A stretch of 64,000 nucleotides of DNA from Antiquaquibacter metalliresistens (lineage in GTDB: Bacteria; Actinomycetota; Actinomycetes; Actinomycetales; Microbacteriaceae), in the NCBI RefSeq assembly GCF_029211225.1, contig NZ_JARGEM010000004.1, positions 62,001-126,000 on the forward strand, read 5' to 3'. Positions 2,112 through 16,032 of this stretch are shown here, in pieces. A program made the position numbers and the translations under genes. Each line of letters opens with the position of its first letter. Within the stretch, counting starts at the first letter, position 1. Under the pieces are notes generated by a model, which was not told the origin of the DNA, did not search any database, and saw nothing but the letters and a program-made list of their open reading frames with translations.

Positions 2112-2158
2112 CTCCGGGAATGGTCGACGACCCGATCGTGCGGCGACGCCACCCGATC

Positions 2159-2299
2159 CGTGCTGCCTCTCTTCCGGACTAGACGATTCTCATCGCCATC
2201 ACCGTCGGTACCGGAATTCCACCGGATCAACCGTGTCGTTGCCGACGCGGGTCGCGGACTATCACCGCCGGTTCGGATTCACACCGACCCCGGAGCACG
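2159..2299 (-). ncRNA. FMN riboswitch (RFN element)
   Basis: Reading the minus strand, the conserved RFN blocks appear in order: GGGGTCGGTG, AACCGGCGGT, AGTCCGCGA, GGTGGAATTCCGGTACCGACGGT (overlapping blocks) and AGTCCGGAAGAGAG. The closing stem P1 is perfect: CGTGCT at 2299-2294 pairs with AGCACG at 2164-2159. The aptamer binds FMN and represses riboflavin synthesis genes. It sits directly upstream of ribD, the first gene of the ribD-ribE-ribBA operon. Confidence 0.95.
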
Positions 2300-2313
2300 T
2301 TCTTGCTACGGCA

Positions 2314-9200: not shown

Positions 9201-9324
9201 CGCGCGACGGCATGCCGTTGCGCGCGCGAGTTCAGCGCTGCAGCAACGACGTGCCACCGTGCGGTCCGACGGATCGCGGTCGCTCGCGGGATTCCCGCGC
9301 GCCCGAACAGGTTGGCACCCCCCC

Positions 9325-12300
9325 ATGCGCACACCCTCCATTGCCCGCACCCCGCTCTGGCGCGCCCTCGCGGCATTCATCGCGGCCCTGCTGGCAGCGG
9401 CCGCACTCGTTCCGCTGACCGCAGTCTCTGCGAGCGCGGCGGACCTCGGCACGACGTCGACGATCACCGTGAACGTCAAGGCGCTGCGCACCGGCGTCAA
9501 CGCGGTGAACGGCATCGCAGGGGTCACGTTCGCGCTCTACGCGGGCACCACGGCATCCACGGACTCACCCGGTGCCAAGGTCAACGAGGCGTGGGCCGAG
9601 TGCGTCAGCAACGCCTCGGGCGTGTGCACCTTCACCGTGCCCAACACGGGCAACGGGCAGGTCAACCACAATGCGGTCTACTGGGTCAAGCAACTGGATG
9701 CACCGGACGGCTACTACCTGAACCCCTCGCTGGTCACGGGCAACGGCACCAACGATCCGTCCAATTCCGAGCGGTTCGCCTCCACGGTGAACGCGTTCCG
9801 CACCCCGGCGCTGTCAGGCAGCACGGTGACGCTGCCGGGCACGGGCGCCATGCCCGCGAACACGTCGATGACCTTCCCGCAGGGCACGGCGAACGGGCAG
9901 ACGAGCGGTCGCTACACCACCTCGGGTTCGTTCGCGGTGTCCCTCGACAACCCGCGCTATCAGCCGACCTGCGAGGCCGACCTCGAGGTCGCGATCGTCA
10001 TCGACCTCTCCACCTCCATGGTCTCGCCCACCGATGCGGGACTGGTCGGGGCCAAAACCGCGGCCAAGGCCTTCCTCGATGCGCTCGTCGACACCGGAAC
10101 GAAGGTCTCGATCTTCACCTTCGGCAGCAACGCGAACACGCCGCCTCAGGCGACGCCTGTGGAGGTCACCAGCGCGAACCTCGCCTCGCTGAAGACCACG
10201 GTCAACAACCTCTCGGTCTCCGGTATCCAGTACACCAACTGGGAACGCGGTCTGTGGCAGGTCGCCGCGCAGTCCGGCGCCTACGACCTCGCGGTCGTGC
10301 TGACCGACGGCAATCCAACGCGGCAAGGCGACGGCGCGGGCCAGAGCGACACCTGGACGAACATGCAACGCATGGAAGGCTCCATCTTCTCCGCGAACGC
10401 GATCAAGGCCGAGAACACGCAGATCTTCACGTTCGGGGTGGGGGACGGCGTGACCGGTGCCCCCGACAACCTCCGGGCCGTCTCCGGCGAGATCCCGTGG
10501 AACGGCGCGGGCGGCACCGTCGCGACCTCGGACTTCTTCCAGACCACGCAGTGGGGCCTCGTGGCGGACGGGCTCGGCTCACTCGCGAACTCGTTGACCT
10601 GCGTCGTGCCGATCACCGTCACCAAGACCGAGATCCTCGCCGACGGCTCGACCGCGGTCGGCAGCGGTTGGAAGTTCACCGCGACCGCATCCGGCGACGG
10701 CACGATCGCCCCGGTCGGGCAGCAGACGACGAACGCCAGCGGCGAAGCCGCATGGCAGCTCGCGATCGGCAGCGCCGACGGTGAGGCGTCCGTCTCCCTC
10801 TCGGAGAACCTCGCCAGCAAGCCCGGTTCCTGGTCGCTGGCGAGCGTGCAGTGCACCAACACCCGCACCGGCACCGATCTCGTCGTGCCGCAGTCCCTGC
10901 CCATCCAGTTGACGGGTCTGACCGTCGGCGACAACATCGAGTGCGCGGTCTCGAACCAGCTGCCGCGTGCGGCGAGCGTCGTGGTCACCAAGCAGTGGGT
11001 CATCAACGGCGCAGCGCCGGTGCCGAACGGCCAGCAGCCCGACGGCCTCGCAGCGCAGCTGACGCTCGACGGCCAGAATCGCGGCTGGGGCAGCGCGGTC
11101 ACCGGCTTCGTCTCCGGTTCGGACATCGTGATCAACGAGACGACGACCGACACGAACGAGTTCTGTTCGATCACCGCGAAGCAGCTCACCTCGCCGACGA
11201 CCTCGTCGCTCGGATACACGGCCTCCCTCGTTCCCGGGGTGAACGCGTTCACGATCACGAACACCGTGACCTGCGAGTCGACCCTCACCCTGATCAAGCG
11301 GGTCACCGGAAACGACACGGCGGGTGGTGCCGCCGATGCCGAGGACTTCACGCTGACGGCCGCGGCCGCGGGTCAGACGACGATCACCGGCGACGGGACC
11401 GTCACCGGTTCCGTCGCACCGGGCGTCGCCTACACCCTCAGTGAGACCGGCCCGGCCGGGTACCGCCAGACCGCGCTCGAGTGCGGTCCGAGCGCCACCG
11501 GACCGTGGACGCCGCTCGCGGAGTCCACGGTCACCGTCGCCGCGCAGACCCACACCTGGTGCCGCTTCACGAACGAGGCGGTGGCCCCACAGCTGCGACT
11601 CGTGAAGACGGTGACGGATGGCGTCGTCGACGCGGACAACTGGACACTCACCGCGAGCATCGACGGGTCCGCCGTCGTCTCCGGCGACGGTGTCGCGGAG
11701 CACACCGTGAAGGCCGGCGTCGCCTACCAGCTCGCGGAGACCCCCGTGGACGGTTTCGACGGCTCGGAGTTCACGGCCAGCGCATGGGTGTGTGAGGTCA
11801 CCAGCGGGCCCGGGCAGGGATCGACCCTGCCCACCGCCGACAGCACGGTGACCCTGGCGCTCGGCCAGAACGTCGAGTGCGAGATCGTGAACACCGTGCA
11901 TCCGCTCGCGCCGACGTTCACGAAGACGCCCGGCAGCGCGAGCGCCAATGCCGACGGCACCTGGAATGTCAGCTACACCCTGACCGCGTCGAACCCCTCA
12001 TCCGTCGCAGACGTCGTCTACGACCTGACCGACACCCCGAACCTGCCGTCCGGAGTCACCGGCGTCAGCGCGACGGTGGAGATCGATGGCGTCACGACGC
12101 CCGTGACCTGGACGACGGGCACCTTCACGGTGGCCACCGGTGCGACCATCGGTGCCGGAGCGGACCCGCACGTCTACACCGTGACGCTGCGCCTGGCGGT
12201 CGCGCCCACGACGGATCCCGCGGATCTCGACTGCGCCGTGAGCGGCGGCGGCATCGACAACGATGCGCTGCTGACGCCGGTGGGCGGCGCACCGATCCCG

Positions 12301-14172
12301 GACGACGCGTGTGTGACCATCGTGCCGCCGACGGTCGCCCACACCAAGACCGTCACCGCACTGCAGCAGAACGCCGATGGAACGTGGACGATCGTCTACG
12401 ACGTCGTGGTGACGGCGACCGGCTCGGGCGTCGCGACCTACTCGCTGAGCGACGTTCCCGCGTTCGGCTCCGGGTTCACGGTGCTGAGCGCATCGGCCAC
12501 CGGCCCGGCGCTCGCCGGCAGCTGGAACGGCACGAGCAGCACGGCGCTGGCGCTGAACCGCCCGCTCGCCGCGGGTTCCAGCGAGACCTATTCGGTCACG
12601 ATCGCGGCTCAGGTCGGTGCGAAGGTCATCGGTACGCCCGCAGCGGATTGCATCCTGGTCTCCCCGGAGGACGGCACCGGCTTCCTCAACCGCGCGACGC
12701 TGACCGCAGGCGGTGAGCAGACCGTGCGTGAGGCGTGCGACGTTCCGGTCTCACCCGAGCTCGACAAGGAGTGGATCTCGACCGTGCAGAACGACGACGC
12801 GAGTTGGGCGGTCACCTTCGACGTGACGGTGACCAACCCGAGCGCCGCCACGGGTCTCGTCTACTCGCTCTCGGACCTGCCGGCATTCGCGACCGGGACG
12901 ACGGTGACCGCGCGCACGGTCGCGCTGAACTCCGCAGCGCCGGTCGGTTGGGATGGCGTGGCGCCGCTCGCGAGCGAGCGCGCGCTCGCCGCGGGCAGCA
13001 CCGATCGCTACACGCTCGTCTTCACGGTCACCGTGCCCGCCGGGCTCGCCCCCGCCGTGCTCGAGTGCGACGCCGAGCCGGGCCACGGCTTCTACAACCA
13101 GGCGGAGGCCACCTCGGGTGATGACACGTTCGGCGCTGAGGACTGCGGTCCGGTCGAGGCTGGCGTGCTGCCGCTCATCGACAAGGTGGTCGCCGACGGC
13201 TACCCGCGGCAGCTTGCCGGCGGTGACTGGGAGATCGCCTACGACATCACGGTCTCGACGCCGCAGGGCAGCCCTCGCGCGGTCTACGACCTGGAGGACT
13301 CGCTCGACTTCGGCGGCGACATCGACGTGCAGACGGCCTCGGTCTCCGGACCGGGCACCGTGAACCCGCTGTGGGACGGCGAGGGCGTGACCTCGGTCGC
13401 CACCGGCGTCGTGCTGCCGGGCGGAGCATCCCACGTCTACACGGTGCTCGTGACCGCTCGCCTTGCGGCGGGCGTCGTGGACAGCGAACAGGCCGACTGC
13501 TCCCTCGACGAGGGTGAGCAGGGCACCGGCTTCCTGAACATCGCCACGGTGCTCAGCGGTTCGCTCGAGCGCAGTGACGACGCGTGCGAGAGCCCCGCCG
13601 CGCCGGAGCTCACGAAGGAACTGCTCGGCACCCCGGTGAAGGGCGGCGACGGCAAGGTGACGATCAAGTACACCGTGACCGCGAGCAACCCCTCCAAGGT
13701 CACGCTCAACTACGACCTGGATGATGCCGTCGCGTTCGCGCAGTACGTGATCATCAACTCCGCAGCGGTGCAGTCGGACGATGCCTCGGTGAACCCTGGC
13801 TGGAACGGCTCGACCACCACACGCGTGGTGACGGGGCAGGAGCTGCCGGCGGGCGCATCCGACGTCTTCGTGGTGACGGTCGTCGCCTCGCCGACGCTGC
13901 TCGTCGAGGACGAGAAGCTCGCGTGCGTGCCCGCCACTCCGGGCCACGGCTTCTTCAACGGTGCCGTGCTCACCAGCGGTGCGGACCAGTACCGGGATGA
14001 CGCGTGCGCGCCGATCCTGCGCACCGATCTGCCCACGCTGCCGCTGCCCGACCTGCCGACGCTCGCCTACACGGGCGTCGCGGTCGCGGTCATCGCGGGC
14101 CCGGGGCTGGCCCTGATCGCCATGGGTCTGCTCTTCTTCGCGCTGCGTCGTCGCCGGCAGCCGAAGCACTGA
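9325..14172 (+). CDS. Giant secreted VWA-domain surface protein with tandem repeats and LAYTG sorting signal
   Basis: A 1615-residue cell-wall protein, probably an adhesin. Residues 1-38 are a signal peptide ending SASA. Residues 40-215 resemble a prealbumin-like (SpaA-type) domain. A von Willebrand A domain follows (about 222-400) with a MIDAS site: DLSTS at D227/S229/S231 and a second Asp, D328, in LTDGN. Two SpaA-like domains begin near 652 and 757. Five repeats of about 140 residues start near 863, 1005, 1144, 1283 and 1427, each with a KxW/T opening, a Y(D/S)L(D/S)D strand and a paired Cys region. The end has LAYTG (1580-1584), a membrane helix and RRRRQPKH, fitting a class E sortase substrate. 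I chose the ATG at 9325 because it starts directly at the signal peptide; 9259 is an in-frame alternative. Confidence 0.85.
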   Translation: MRTPSIARTPLWRALAAFIAALLAAAALVPLTAVSASAADLGTTSTITVNVKALRTGVNAVNGIAGVTFALYAGTTASTDSPGAKVNEAWAECVSNASGVCTFTVPNTGNGQVNHNAVYWVKQLDAPDGYYLNPSLVTGNGTNDPSNSERFASTVNAFRTPALSGSTVTLPGTGAMPANTSMTFPQGTANGQTSGRYTTSGSFAVSLDNPRYQPTCEADLEVAIVIDLSTSMVSPTDAGLVGAKTAAKAFLDALVDTGTKVSIFTFGSNANTPPQATPVEVTSANLASLKTTVNNLSVSGIQYTNWERGLWQVAAQSGAYDLAVVLTDGNPTRQGDGAGQSDTWTNMQRMEGSIFSANAIKAENTQIFTFGVGDGVTGAPDNLRAVSGEIPWNGAGGTVATSDFFQTTQWGLVADGLGSLANSLTCVVPITVTKTEILADGSTAVGSGWKFTATASGDGTIAPVGQQTTNASGEAAWQLAIGSADGEASVSLSENLASKPGSWSLASVQCTNTRTGTDLVVPQSLPIQLTGLTVGDNIECAVSNQLPRAASVVVTKQWVINGAAPVPNGQQPDGLAAQLTLDGQNRGWGSAVTGFVSGSDIVINETTTDTNEFCSITAKQLTSPTTSSLGYTASLVPGVNAFTITNTVTCESTLTLIKRVTGNDTAGGAADAEDFTLTAAAAGQTTITGDGTVTGSVAPGVAYTLSETGPAGYRQTALECGPSATGPWTPLAESTVTVAAQTHTWCRFTNEAVAPQLRLVKTVTDGVVDADNWTLTASIDGSAVVSGDGVAEHTVKAGVAYQLAETPVDGFDGSEFTASAWVCEVTSGPGQGSTLPTADSTVTLALGQNVECEIVNTVHPLAPTFTKTPGSASANADGTWNVSYTLTASNPSSVADVVYDLTDTPNLPSGVTGVSATVEIDGVTTPVTWTTGTFTVATGATIGAGADPHVYTVTLRLAVAPTTDPADLDCAVSGGGIDNDALLTPVGGAPIPDDACVTIVPPTVAHTKTVTALQQNADGTWTIVYDVVVTATGSGVATYSLSDVPAFGSGFTVLSASATGPALAGSWNGTSSTALALNRPLAAGSSETYSVTIAAQVGAKVIGTPAADCILVSPEDGTGFLNRATLTAGGEQTVREACDVPVSPELDKEWISTVQNDDASWAVTFDVTVTNPSAATGLVYSLSDLPAFATGTTVTARTVALNSAAPVGWDGVAPLASERALAAGSTDRYTLVFTVTVPAGLAPAVLECDAEPGHGFYNQAEATSGDDTFGAEDCGPVEAGVLPLIDKVVADGYPRQLAGGDWEIAYDITVSTPQGSPRAVYDLEDSLDFGGDIDVQTASVSGPGTVNPLWDGEGVTSVATGVVLPGGASHVYTVLVTARLAAGVVDSEQADCSLDEGEQGTGFLNIATVLSGSLERSDDACESPAAPELTKELLGTPVKGGDGKVTIKYTVTASNPSKVTLNYDLDDAVAFAQYVIINSAAVQSDDASVNPGWNGSTTTRVVTGQELPAGASDVFVVTVVASPTLLVEDEKLACVPATPGHGFFNGAVLTSGADQYRDDACAPILRTDLPTLPLPDLPTLAYTGVAVAVIAGPGLALIAMGLLFFALRRRRQPKH

Positions 14173-14218: not shown

Positions 14219-14312
14219 CCCCCGAAAGGGGGTGATATCCATCGTCGCAATCCGCGTCATAGTGGGCCGACGCGGGTGTCTCTTTCGATGAAGGTACTAG
14301 TGCACCTTCATC
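14219..14312 (+). promoter_or_regulatory. Two dyads in the leader of the sigma/anti-sigma fusion gene
   Basis: At 14219-14232 CCCCC-GAAA-GGGGG is a perfect stem with a GNRA tetraloop. At 14287-14312 GATGAAGGT and ACCTTCATC form a perfect 9-bp inverted repeat around an 8-nt spacer; this ends 43 nt before the gene start. The second is well placed to be an operator or a 5' leader structure. No standard promoter could be assigned with confidence. Confidence 0.45.
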
Positions 14313-14355
14313 CCAGAGGGGACAATGAAAGAGGACCCGGGAATGGATCAGGGGG

Positions 14356-15906
14356 ATGAACCGAACTGAGGGTCCGGCATCGACGATGTCGGATCAGGCG
14401 TTGGTGGAACGAGCGCGTGCGGGGGATCGGCACGCCTTCGGTGAATTGTGGCGCCGTCATTTCCGTTCGGGAGCACGGGTCGCCCGCCAGTTCACGTCGT
14501 CGCTGGATGCGGACGACCTCGTTGCCGAGGCCTACACCCGCATCTATCAGCGCGTGCTGGCGGGCGGCGGCCCGAAGGGCGCGTTCCGTCCATACCTCTA
14601 CACGACCATCCGCAATCTCGCAGCCACCTGGGGTGCCGCATCTCGCGACATCCAGGTGGATGACATGACCGCTTTCGAGGATCCCGCGACGAGCGAGGAT
14701 CCGGCGGCCGTCGCACTCGATCGCACCCTGACCGCGCGCGCCTTCCGCAGCCTGCCCGAGCGCTGGCAGTCCGTGCTCTGGTATACCGAGGTCGAGGGTA
14801 TGGACCCGCACGAGGTCGCGCCGATCCTGGGGATCACCGCCAACGGGGTCGCGGCGCTGTCGTACCGTGCACGTGAAGGCCTGCGCAAGGCCTGGCTGCA
14901 GGCCCACATCAACGACGCCACGGCATCGGGCGAGTGCCAGTGGGCGATCTCCCGGATCGGCGACAACGCTCGCAACGGTCTCGGCGCCCGCGACACGGAA
15001 CGCATGTCGTTCCACCTCGCCACATGCGCGCGATGCGCGATCATCAGCGAAGAGGTCGACGAGGTCGGCTCGCGCCTCGCGCTCGTGATGCTTCCCATCC
15101 TCCTCGGCGGTATCGCCGGGGGCACCCTGCTCGCTTCCGTTGGCAGCGCCTCGAGTTCCATGGCGGCGTCGGGGGACGCCATACCTGCCATGCCCGAGGC
15201 CATCGGAGCGGGAGGGGCGGTCGCGGCCGGAGCATTCGGGTTGCTCGGCGCCGCGACCGTCCCCGTAGCGCTCATCGGGGGACTGGCCATCGTGGTCGCG
15301 GCGACCGGCTCGGTCATCGCGCTGTCGCCGACGAGCACGACCGACGGGCAGGGCGACTCCACCGTCGCCGTCGGCGAGGCGAGCAGCGACGGCGCCGAGC
15401 CCGGGGGCGACCTTCCGATCGTGCCGGTCGACGTCGACAAGATCGGACTCGACGACCCGGCGAACGTGCCGGAGGGCCTCGTCGACGGTGTTGTGGGGGA
15501 TGTCGGCGGTCTGGTCGACGGCGTGCTCGGCACCATCACCGGTGGTGAGGCGCCCGACGGTCACACGGCGCCCGGCGGGGTCGTCGGCGCCGATATCTCG
15601 CTGAACCTCACGGGCACCGGCACACCGGGCGCGCACGTCTCGCTGCAGGCGGCCGGTCAGGTCTACGCCACGACCACGGTGGATGCGAACGGCACGTTCG
15701 TGCTAAACGTCACCGCGATCCCCGGCGGGCTGTCGTCGCTGGATCTCGTGCAGACGGTGGACCGCAGCTACCTCGCGAACCTGCTCGGGCTGGGCGGTCT
15801 GCTCGACGGACTGCTCGGCAACCTGGATTCGCTCATCAACGGTCTCATCCAGCCGATCCGGCTGACCAGTGGCGGATCCAGTATCGGCATCAACCTTCTG
15901 GGCTGA
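14356..15906 (+). CDS. ECF RNA polymerase sigma factor fused to a zinc anti-sigma motif, membrane helices and an Ig-like domain
   Basis: One 516-residue chain combines parts that are normally separate proteins. Residues 12-80 are sigma region 2 (LDADDLVAEAYTRIYQ) and 126-180 are region 4 (SLPERWQSVLWYTEVEG, then a helix-turn-helix). A ZAS zinc motif follows: C194-x25-H220-x3-C224-x2-C227. Hydrophobic stretches lie at 241-263 and 285-323; the second is long enough for one or two helices. After an acidic linker comes an Ig-like domain (about 410-516) interrupted by a Leu/Gly-rich segment. I infer a membrane-held sigma factor released on a surface signal, as in known fused ECF groups. ATG 14386 is an equally good start because GAGGG precedes it more distantly. 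It follows the VWA adhesin by 183 nt. Confidence 0.85.
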   Translation: MNRTEGPASTMSDQALVERARAGDRHAFGELWRRHFRSGARVARQFTSSLDADDLVAEAYTRIYQRVLAGGGPKGAFRPYLYTTIRNLAATWGAASRDIQVDDMTAFEDPATSEDPAAVALDRTLTARAFRSLPERWQSVLWYTEVEGMDPHEVAPILGITANGVAALSYRAREGLRKAWLQAHINDATASGECQWAISRIGDNARNGLGARDTERMSFHLATCARCAIISEEVDEVGSRLALVMLPILLGGIAGGTLLASVGSASSSMAASGDAIPAMPEAIGAGGAVAAGAFGLLGAATVPVALIGGLAIVVAATGSVIALSPTSTTDGQGDSTVAVGEASSDGAEPGGDLPIVPVDVDKIGLDDPANVPEGLVDGVVGDVGGLVDGVLGTITGGEAPDGHTAPGGVVGADISLNLTGTGTPGAHVSLQAAGQVYATTTVDANGTFVLNVTAIPGGLSSLDLVQTVDRSYLANLLGLGGLLDGLLGNLDSLINGLIQPIRLTSGGSSIGINLLG

Positions 15907-15985
15907 GTCGCGTCATACTCGGGGCCGATCACAGTCTCTTGAATGGGATGTCACCATCCTGTCCCTGACGTCACCAAGGGACGCT

Positions 15986-16018
15986 GGTCCCGCTCGCCGC
16001 CCAGGGCGAAGCGGGACC
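15986..16018 (+). terminator. Terminator of the sigma fusion gene
   Basis: GGTCCCGCTCGCC at 15986-15998 pairs with GGCGAAGCGGGACC at 16005-16018, a 13-bp stem with one bulged base and a 6-nt loop. It lies 80 nt after the stop of the sigma fusion gene, in the convergent space with sdhB, and could act in both directions. Confidence 0.6.
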
Positions 16019-16032
16019 GGCATGGCATCACG

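Follow-up and report, generated by a model that had tools for sequence, protein, structure and literature searches.

A membrane-tethered sigma factor of Antiquaquibacter metalliresistens and the promoter-like element that may connect it to its own gene, a small RNA, and a cell-wall protein

Bacterial sigma factors of the extracytoplasmic function (ECF) type can be joined to their anti-sigma domain in one polypeptide. In this work, we analyzed a 64,000-nt stretch of the Antiquaquibacter metalliresistens genome (Microbacteriaceae; contig NZ_JARGEM010000004.1, positions 62,001–126,000; hereafter the window, with positions counted from its first letter), in which one gene (14356–15906, forward strand) encodes a 516-amino acid (aa) fusion of an ECF sigma factor, a zinc anti-sigma domain, hydrophobic helices, and an Ig-like end. 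Judging from genome comparisons, this is probably a tethered, self-inhibited sigma factor that acts through the promoter-like element CGTCATA-N16-GTCTCT to control its own gene together with a small RNA and a protein of the cell wall. The prediction of the promoter and its targets is well supported, that of the RNA is less certain, and the fusion architecture is already known. No earlier description of the promoter, the regulon, or the RNA was found in the titles and abstract openings of the open-licence papers that were listed. The original prediction for this gene had recognized a fused, C-terminally extended sigma factor, which stands; its pairing of the gene with a giant adhesin does not, and it had overlooked the promoter-like element together with the regulon and the RNA behind the gene.

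The promoter-like element and its targets

Two copies of CGTCATA-N16-GTCTCT flank the gene on the forward strand. One (14255–14283) lies before it and is predicted to form the −35 and −10 boxes of an autoregulated promoter, and the other (15911–15939) starts 5 nt past the stop codon. These are the only matches to CGTCATN{14,20}GTCTCT in the window, where 0.13 would be expected. The genome assembly (3.07 Mb, 34 contigs, 97.7% complete) has three perfect matches and one with a single mismatch, and the reversed pattern, which served as the control for all element counts, has none. The third perfect copy lies at least 94 nt upstream of a gene encoding a choice-of-anchor G protein (237 bits to NF033766, cut-off 45) with an LAYTG sortase signal; such signals were called by a regular expression plus hydrophobicity.

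The element is conserved at the orthologous locus. Nineteen same-genus loci were taken by gene, and the site was located with CGTCA-N17-19-GT. Among the letters that this search did not fix, T was found in 19/19 loci, A in 18/19, and CTCT in 18/19 (one CTTT), with constant spacing. The upstream regions of orthologues read gCGTCATA, 16 nt, and GTCTCT, and the spacer letters vary, as they do in a sigma promoter. Across the 27 same-genus genomes, 91 matches were found (16–18 nt after CGTCAT) compared with six for the reversed pattern, and the four genomes without a match to the sigma factor at 1e-10 (G015, G017, G023, and G025) have one element match in total.

Outside of the sigma locus, there are 32 CGTCATA sites in the genus, of which 31 were fetched (the other, in G018 contig C220, lies in locus L037). 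At 16 of these 31 sites, in 16 genomes, the first downstream open reading frame (ORF) encodes a member of the choice-of-anchor G group. This assignment was made by mutual similarity, with the hidden Markov model (HMM) run on the L102 protein (NF033766, 238 bits against the cut-off of 45, which places it in the family) and further HMM-found members in G000, G001, and G011. The remaining 15 sites precede one LASTG protein, two SigK-like ECF sigma factors, three other genes, and, at nine sites, no called gene. The gene calls came from a simple codon-usage caller, which also produced false antisense ORFs over sdhAB.

In the wider set of 199 family genomes, 63 sites were found (reversed pattern, 10). 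Of these, 17 precede a fused sigma gene, 13 follow one at a distance of at most 1.2 kb, nine precede a choice-of-anchor G gene, and 24 are elsewhere. These classes were assigned by the distance to match ends, which is the sole basis for the downstream label in G143. The three placements seen in the genome of A. metalliresistens, namely, before the sigma gene, after it, and before a choice-of-anchor G gene, thus recur across the family. A homologue at 1e-30 is present in 26 of the 33 motif-bearing genomes compared with 73/199 overall (Fisher p = 1.3e-7), and among the 22 genomes with a close homologue (1e-100), 18 have a choice-of-anchor G protein (p = 9.9e-6) and 16 have the motif (p = 3e-10), although the genomes in all three comparisons are related and not independent. 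In Microcella pacifica, the fused sigma gene has a choice-of-anchor G gene (211 bits) as its immediate upstream neighbor. In a Leifsonia locus (L151, 8316–11788), the exact CGTCATA-N16-GTCTCT precedes the gene of an MSCRAMM-like LAHTG protein, and a fused sigma gene follows directly.

Paralogues of the fused sigma factor show a related pattern. On contig C30 of the A. metalliresistens genome (L034, 8404–13875), a paralogue is divergent from the gene of a DUF11, LGFTG-type protein, and both upstream regions have CGTCATA-N17-GTGT(C/T)A, as if the two formed a private promoter pair. Paralogue promoters were compared by eye. In both L034 and L035, the paralogue and its neighbor share CGTCAT and have an altered second box, with spacers after the seventh letter of 17/17 and 16/17 nt, respectively. 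A kept CGTCAT with a changed second box is what a conserved region 4 and a variable region 2 would produce, and the shared elements fit such a division of sequence conservation.

Several observations weigh against control of these sites by the fused sigma factor. The exact element is missing in 47 of the 73 family genomes that have a homologue, seven of the 33 motif-bearing genomes lack a homologue at 1e-30, and 24 of the 63 family sites are unexplained, with some located within called genes. The spacer in M. pacifica is 2 nt shorter (CGTCATA-N14-GTCTCT), and no common element was seen by eye in L036, L040, and L164, where paralogues lie beside surface proteins. The element might then serve a different regulator or sigma factor, under which both the fused sigma gene and the surface protein would fall, with the fused sigma factor acting on other targets. 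The seven motif-bearing genomes without a match would agree with this, as would the SigK-like ECF genes that carry the element upstream in some genomes. We consider it quite improbable, given the strong co-occurrence of the motif with close homologues, the presence of the element at both ends of the sigma gene, and the CGTCAT with a changed second box that the L034 and L035 paralogues share with their surface-protein neighbors.

SigK-like ECF genes behind the same element were seen in L117 (2099–2662) and L121 (2098–2661), both HMM-tested, and in L267 and L270, and a sigma cascade is possible there. Two other candidates were tried and rejected. A looser pattern, CGTCATN{16,18}GTNTNN, was unspecific (54–89 matches in each of six genomes; reversed control, 6–17). 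The Leu/Gly-rich likeness between the sigma ectodomain and the choice-of-anchor G target is compositional, with a best E of 0.53 after composition adjustment; two of 60 shuffles reached the 39.7 bits obtained without adjustment, and the reversed sequence scored higher still (43.9).

Architecture and topology of the fused sigma factor

The frame at 14356–15906 runs from ATG to TGA without an internal stop in the ORF reading of the window, and all of its parts are given here on the forward strand. Region 2 of the sigma factor (14449–14622, residues 32–89) matches Sigma70_r2 above the Pfam cut-off (E = 1.1e-6), and region 4 (14737–14877, residues 128–174) matches Sigma70_r4_2 below the curated cut-off (E = 5.5e-4, 20 bits against 25.7). 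The NCBIfam model TIGR02937 (sigma70-ECF) spans both regions (residues 26–179; E = 2.7e-16, 59.6 bits against 42.9). With regions 2 and 4 only and a match to this model, the protein is an ECF sigma factor; the closest match in PDB is sigma-E (1or7, 3.1e-11). The zinc anti-sigma domain zf-HC2 follows at 14935–15039 (residues 194–228; E = 3.1e-5, above the Pfam cut-off), with the ligands spelled as C194-x25-H220-x3-C224-x2-C227, a zinc anti-sigma motif. The HMM searches proposed as a check of the original prediction thus found sigma-2 and zf-HC2 above the cut-off and sigma-4 below it, with TIGR02937 covering both sigma regions.

Based on Kyte-Doolittle hydropathy, by which all membrane helices were called, three 19-residue windows have means above 1.6, namely, 237–255, 282–300, and 304–322. 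The hydrophobic helix H1 after the zinc motif (15064–15132, residues 237–259) has L241, P247, and G251 family-wide and may be peripheral or membrane-spanning. The main membrane helix lies within residues 296–322 (15241–15321), with the best windows at 304–322 and 296–314. The predicted outer part (15322–15903) consists of a linker, Leu/Gly-rich segments, a Big_6-like domain, and a Leu/Gly-rich end. The Big_6 match (residues 412–454, 15589–15717) is just under the Pfam cut-off (E = 1.2e-5, 25.9 bits against 27.6). The intact frame and these domain matches bear out the earlier claim that a single polypeptide combines ECF regions 2 and 4 with a zinc motif, hydrophobic helices, and an Ig-like end. 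The Leu/Gly-rich insert that had been pointed out, with its GLVDG and GLLDG stretches, is present, and these segments are kept across the genus.

The fusion is conserved. A match at 1e-10 was found in 23 of the 27 same-genus genomes, some of which have paralogues only. The complete genes at the orthologous locus are single frames of 473–576 aa that align with the window protein along its length; the orthologue in L057 is truncated by a contig end, and the match in G018 extends past a stop near its end. Among 36 sampled homologues, zf-HC2 was matched in 35, H220, C224, and C227 are invariant, and C194 is present in at least 90%. Because the orthologues align at full length and 35 of the 36 homologues carry zf-HC2, neither a sequencing frameshift between two genes nor a loss of zinc ligands, two of the objections that had been anticipated, holds. 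One paralogue is an exception for the ligands: in L040 (8998–10818), the whole zinc domain is absent and the membrane and outer parts are retained. This paralogue sits two genes from a 2496-aa surface protein. Plasmid records contained only partial relatives, in 16 of 72,556, none of which covers 80% of the query.

Upstream of the coding region, the leader of the sigma mRNA (14284–14355, forward strand) is conserved and has a predicted hairpin (14287–14312) and a start-like ATG at 14343. This ATG opens a short start-like ORF (14343–14369; ATG GAT CAG ... TGA) with GAGG 8 nt upstream. The short ORF overlaps the sigma start in a different frame. Orthologue leaders retain its first letters, a hint that the two may be translationally coupled.

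The C-terminal part is predicted to lie outside of the cell because of the acidic stretch after the main helix and the outer-type domains in relatives. Over 55 homologues, the net charge is −139 after the second (main) helix compared with +11 before it (Wilcoxon p = 4e-9), and relatives bear Ig, DUF642, DUF11-like, or NPCBM domains in this part. Some observations point the other way. In the region 230–330 of most same-genus orthologues, two hydrophobic windows are above the threshold, both of them strongly hydrophobic (means of 1.94 and 2.32), and if H1 spanned the membrane without residues 282–300 doing so, the C-terminus would be inside. Counts of K and R alone favor neither side (more before the helix in 12 and more after it in 16 of the 55). 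With two such membrane passes, the C-terminal part would be cytosolic, and switching would depend on an internal ligand or a change of shape and not on an outer cue. This arrangement is unlikely in view of the strongly acidic stretch after the second helix and of the Pro/Thr-rich linkers and the Ig, DUF642, DUF11, and NPCBM domains of relatives, which are typical of outer parts. Moreover, the family-wide L, P, and G of H1 are what a sigma-contacting helix could have. In the survey of hydrophobic windows and loci, 10 loci without a called sigma gene were dropped (L041, which has an unfused zf-HC2, L060, L139, L141, L146, L160–L163, and L177).

Flanking genes, the giant adhesin, and the predicted small RNA

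The original prediction had named a giant adhesin as the partner of the sigma factor. In the window, this LAYTG-type surface protein (9259–14172; VWA and SpaA_2) lies between ptsI and the sigma gene. At all 18 same-genus orthologue loci examined, ptsI is upstream of the sigma gene and a relative of the adhesin is absent, such that the distance between the ptsI and sigma matches is 214–1016 nt at these loci compared with 5404 nt in the window. Among the loci examined, the adhesin is extra to the genome of A. metalliresistens, and the absence at 18/18 loci rules it out as a conserved partner. The CGTCAT..GTCT element is missing from the 240–300 nt between ptsI and the adhesin start. Relatives of the adhesin occur at 1e-20 in 24 of the 198 other family genomes and lie away from the listed fused-sigma coordinates, except for one in G146 after a fused-sigma paralogue. 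Another relative (35%) is on contig C12 of the A. metalliresistens genome.

A broader pairing of the fused sigma factor with surface proteins survives in part. A sortase-type protein is encoded within two genes of the sigma gene at seven of 55 Microbacteriaceae fused-sigma loci, the window included. Such proteins account for 8 of the 202 genes within two of a fused sigma gene compared with 4 of the 503 further off (p = 0.0066, with the window counted). This enrichment was not seen at the genus orthologue loci alone (p = 0.43). For these counts, five duplicate loci were dropped, as were L153, L160, L164, L166, and L167, which are not clearly Microbacteriaceae. Fused-sigma paralogues by sortase-type proteins are found in L034 (A. 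metalliresistens itself), L035, L036, L040, L133, and L151, and outside of the family in L164. In Glaciihabitans (L130, 5574–16616), the sigma gene lies between the genes of two giant proteins (1409 and 1539 aa) that give Ig and SdrD_B-like matches. The adjacency in the window and the over-representation of sortase-type proteins would suit a functional unit of the sigma factor and the giant adhesin, but with the adhesin absent at every same-genus orthologue locus examined and the element missing before it, such a unit is very improbable. Elsewhere in the window, an FMN riboswitch (2157–2301, reverse strand) was matched at 75 bits.

On the other side of the sigma gene, a small RNA is predicted at 15940–16021 (forward strand), convergent with sdhB and directly behind the second copy of the element. 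It consists of three hairpins (15945–15960, 15961–15982, and 15983–16021), the last of which is terminator-like. The RNA was compared among copies behind CGTCATA-N16-GTCTC(T/C), present at 21 of 30 loci from several genera (20 distinct, with L138 and L299 identical). In all 21 copies, folding of the 120 nt that follow the element is more stable than that of dinucleotide-shuffled sequences (z from −2.2 to −9.0). Among eight related species, both sides have changed in 10 of 40 base pairs, and eight of these 10 are in hairpins 1 and 2, before the terminator. In 12 of the 13 other copies, a CCCAG loop is retained in the third hairpin on differing stems; in L130, CCCAG is in another hairpin. When a covariance model was built from the eight species, it recognized a copy at the equivalent position in Glaciihabitans (E = 0.0012). 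Among the 33 sources searched, this model misses the RNA of the window, and no Rfam family reached its gathering score at 15940–16021, with three sub-threshold matches only (E = 0.14–0.87). The hairpins are conserved, and the predicted RNA may exist as a transcript that has a function.

Searches for targets of the RNA gave mixed results. Duplexes of the RNA with the leaders of the sigma and choice-of-anchor G mRNAs are energetically no better than those of shuffles, and for the longest perfect complement between the RNA and a leader, at best 10% of shuffles were as good in any of 13 species. In a post hoc comparison, the invariant ACCCGAA loop of hairpin 1 was found to be complementary to TTCGGG repeats in the choice-of-anchor G leader in 8/8 species of one subclade. 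ATTCGGG occurs 18 times in 1,932 nt of leader compared with eight times in 156,136 nt elsewhere at the same loci (both strands). The TTCGGG repeats (one to four copies) were seen in the choice-of-anchor G leaders of this subclade only (L093, L095, and L101–L106), and the complementarity is absent in A. metalliresistens and five other species.

The downstream element may instead have no role as a small-RNA promoter, with its transcript being an antisense RNA to sdhB or the hairpins a shared terminator of the convergent genes. A transcript from the element would indeed point at sdhB, in the eight-species subclade the third hairpin comes close to a perfect terminator for both directions, and the covariance model also responds to the opposite strand of this palindromic terminator. 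In addition, the target searches for the RNA of the window itself were negative, and the 3′ site is missing at six of the 19 same-genus loci (L046, L051, L053, L054, L055, and L056; 12 have it, and one ends before it). This alternative is rather doubtful because hairpins 1 and 2 precede the terminator and hold eight of the 10 pairs changed on both sides, and the model finds the Glaciihabitans copy at the same place.

The proposed switch and its relation to known sigma-factor systems

Taken together, the fused protein may act as a self-contained switch for remodeling of the cell-wall surface. The ECF sigma factor would be kept inactive at the membrane by the zinc anti-sigma domain of the same polypeptide. 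An envelope cue acting on the outer C-terminal part would free the sigma domain, most likely via regulated proteolysis, as has been proposed for ECF52. The freed sigma factor would then transcribe from CGTCATA-N16-GTCTCT promoters, with its own gene (as positive feedback), the structured small RNA right behind it, and the distant choice-of-anchor G protein with its LAYTG signal as putative targets. The view that such a fused sigma, anti-sigma, and membrane protein must be released or change shape to act had been part of the original prediction and appears right, with proteolysis as the presumed route. Release and anchoring are possible, as two M50 and two sortase matches were found in the genome; a point against is that these genes are distant, being more than 220 kb away on the same contig or on other contigs. 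More tentatively, within this three-part regulon the RNA may tune the mRNA of the wall protein, and the paralogues with changed second boxes may run parallel private circuits for other surface proteins.

For a little-studied class of sigma factors, comparative genomics has thus yielded a sharp promoter-like element, a small conserved target set, and a candidate small RNA. Since the organisms have cultured relatives, direct tests of recognition, release, and output are feasible.

Fused membrane ECF sigma factors are spread across actinobacteria, as judged from the best 80 of 552 encoding stretches. A coupling of the surface to a sigma factor through an outer domain is a feature of SigI/RsgI of Clostridium thermocellum, which consists of two proteins and belongs to a different sigma family. 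SigI6 and SigI7 are named and RsgI autoproteolysis is cited in a published account (PMC10766802).

In the actinobacterial groups ECF48, ECF52, and ECF53, the sigma factor carries at its C-terminal side a zinc domain, one membrane helix or two, and an extension that can reach 400 residues (PMC8999054), and release of the sigma factor by proteolysis is expected (PMC8999054; PMC5826349; PMC10766802). With its zinc domain, membrane helix or helices, and long C-terminal extension, the window protein is of the ECF48/52/53 type in the broad sense, in agreement with the actinobacterial ECF kind with C-terminal extensions that had been predicted. For ECF53 and ECF48, both this architecture and the expected proteolytic release are shared with the window protein (PMC8999054). 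IutY of Pseudomonas putida (ECF243) is also a sigma factor fused to a membrane anti-sigma part and released by regulated intramembrane proteolysis; unlike the window protein, it serves iron-starvation cell-surface signaling in a Gram-negative bacterium, and the passage on it names no zinc domain (PMC8999054). Control of small RNAs (MicA, RybB, and MicL) alongside protein genes by an envelope ECF sigma factor has a precedent in sigma-E of Escherichia coli, but its anti-sigma factor RseA is separate, whereas the predicted RNA of the window is encoded behind the sigma gene (PMC8103513).

Among the closest known systems is SCO4117 of Streptomyces coelicolor, the first ECF52 member characterized and the only one studied in the literature consulted, which like the window protein has an ECF domain, a zinc finger, a membrane helix, and a long C-terminal extension in one protein (PMC5826349). 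It differs in having a carbohydrate-binding module after a Pro-rich part at its end, in adjoining atrA, and in its proposed motif, CSGYN-17bps-SRHA; for the ECF52 promoter signature, the authors call for further experiments (PMC5826349). The window protein has no NPCBM match at E 1 in Pfam and a Big_6-like end instead, which places it outside of ECF52 in the strict sense. A Streptomyces locus with SCO4117-like marks (L347) has an NPCBM match (1.2e-27) and an upstream TetR-family gene that is likely atrA. In a 61-row tree, it falls on a long branch in a separate 14-row clade (100/97) that excludes the window protein, which is moderate evidence for their separation. The truncated SCO4117 sigma factor activates its own gene, and a knock-out lowers expression of the chaplin genes (PMC5826349), of which ChpA-C are anchored by class E sortases, with LAXTG as the recognized signal (PMC5148588). 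By analogy, this offers a precedent for autoregulation by a free sigma domain and for chaplin control, and the positive autoregulation and control of surface-coat genes (chaplins and rodlins) by SCO4117 (PMC5826349) resemble the regulon proposed here. In line with these effects on chaplins, control of sortase-anchored surface proteins may recur in the class of fused sigma factors.

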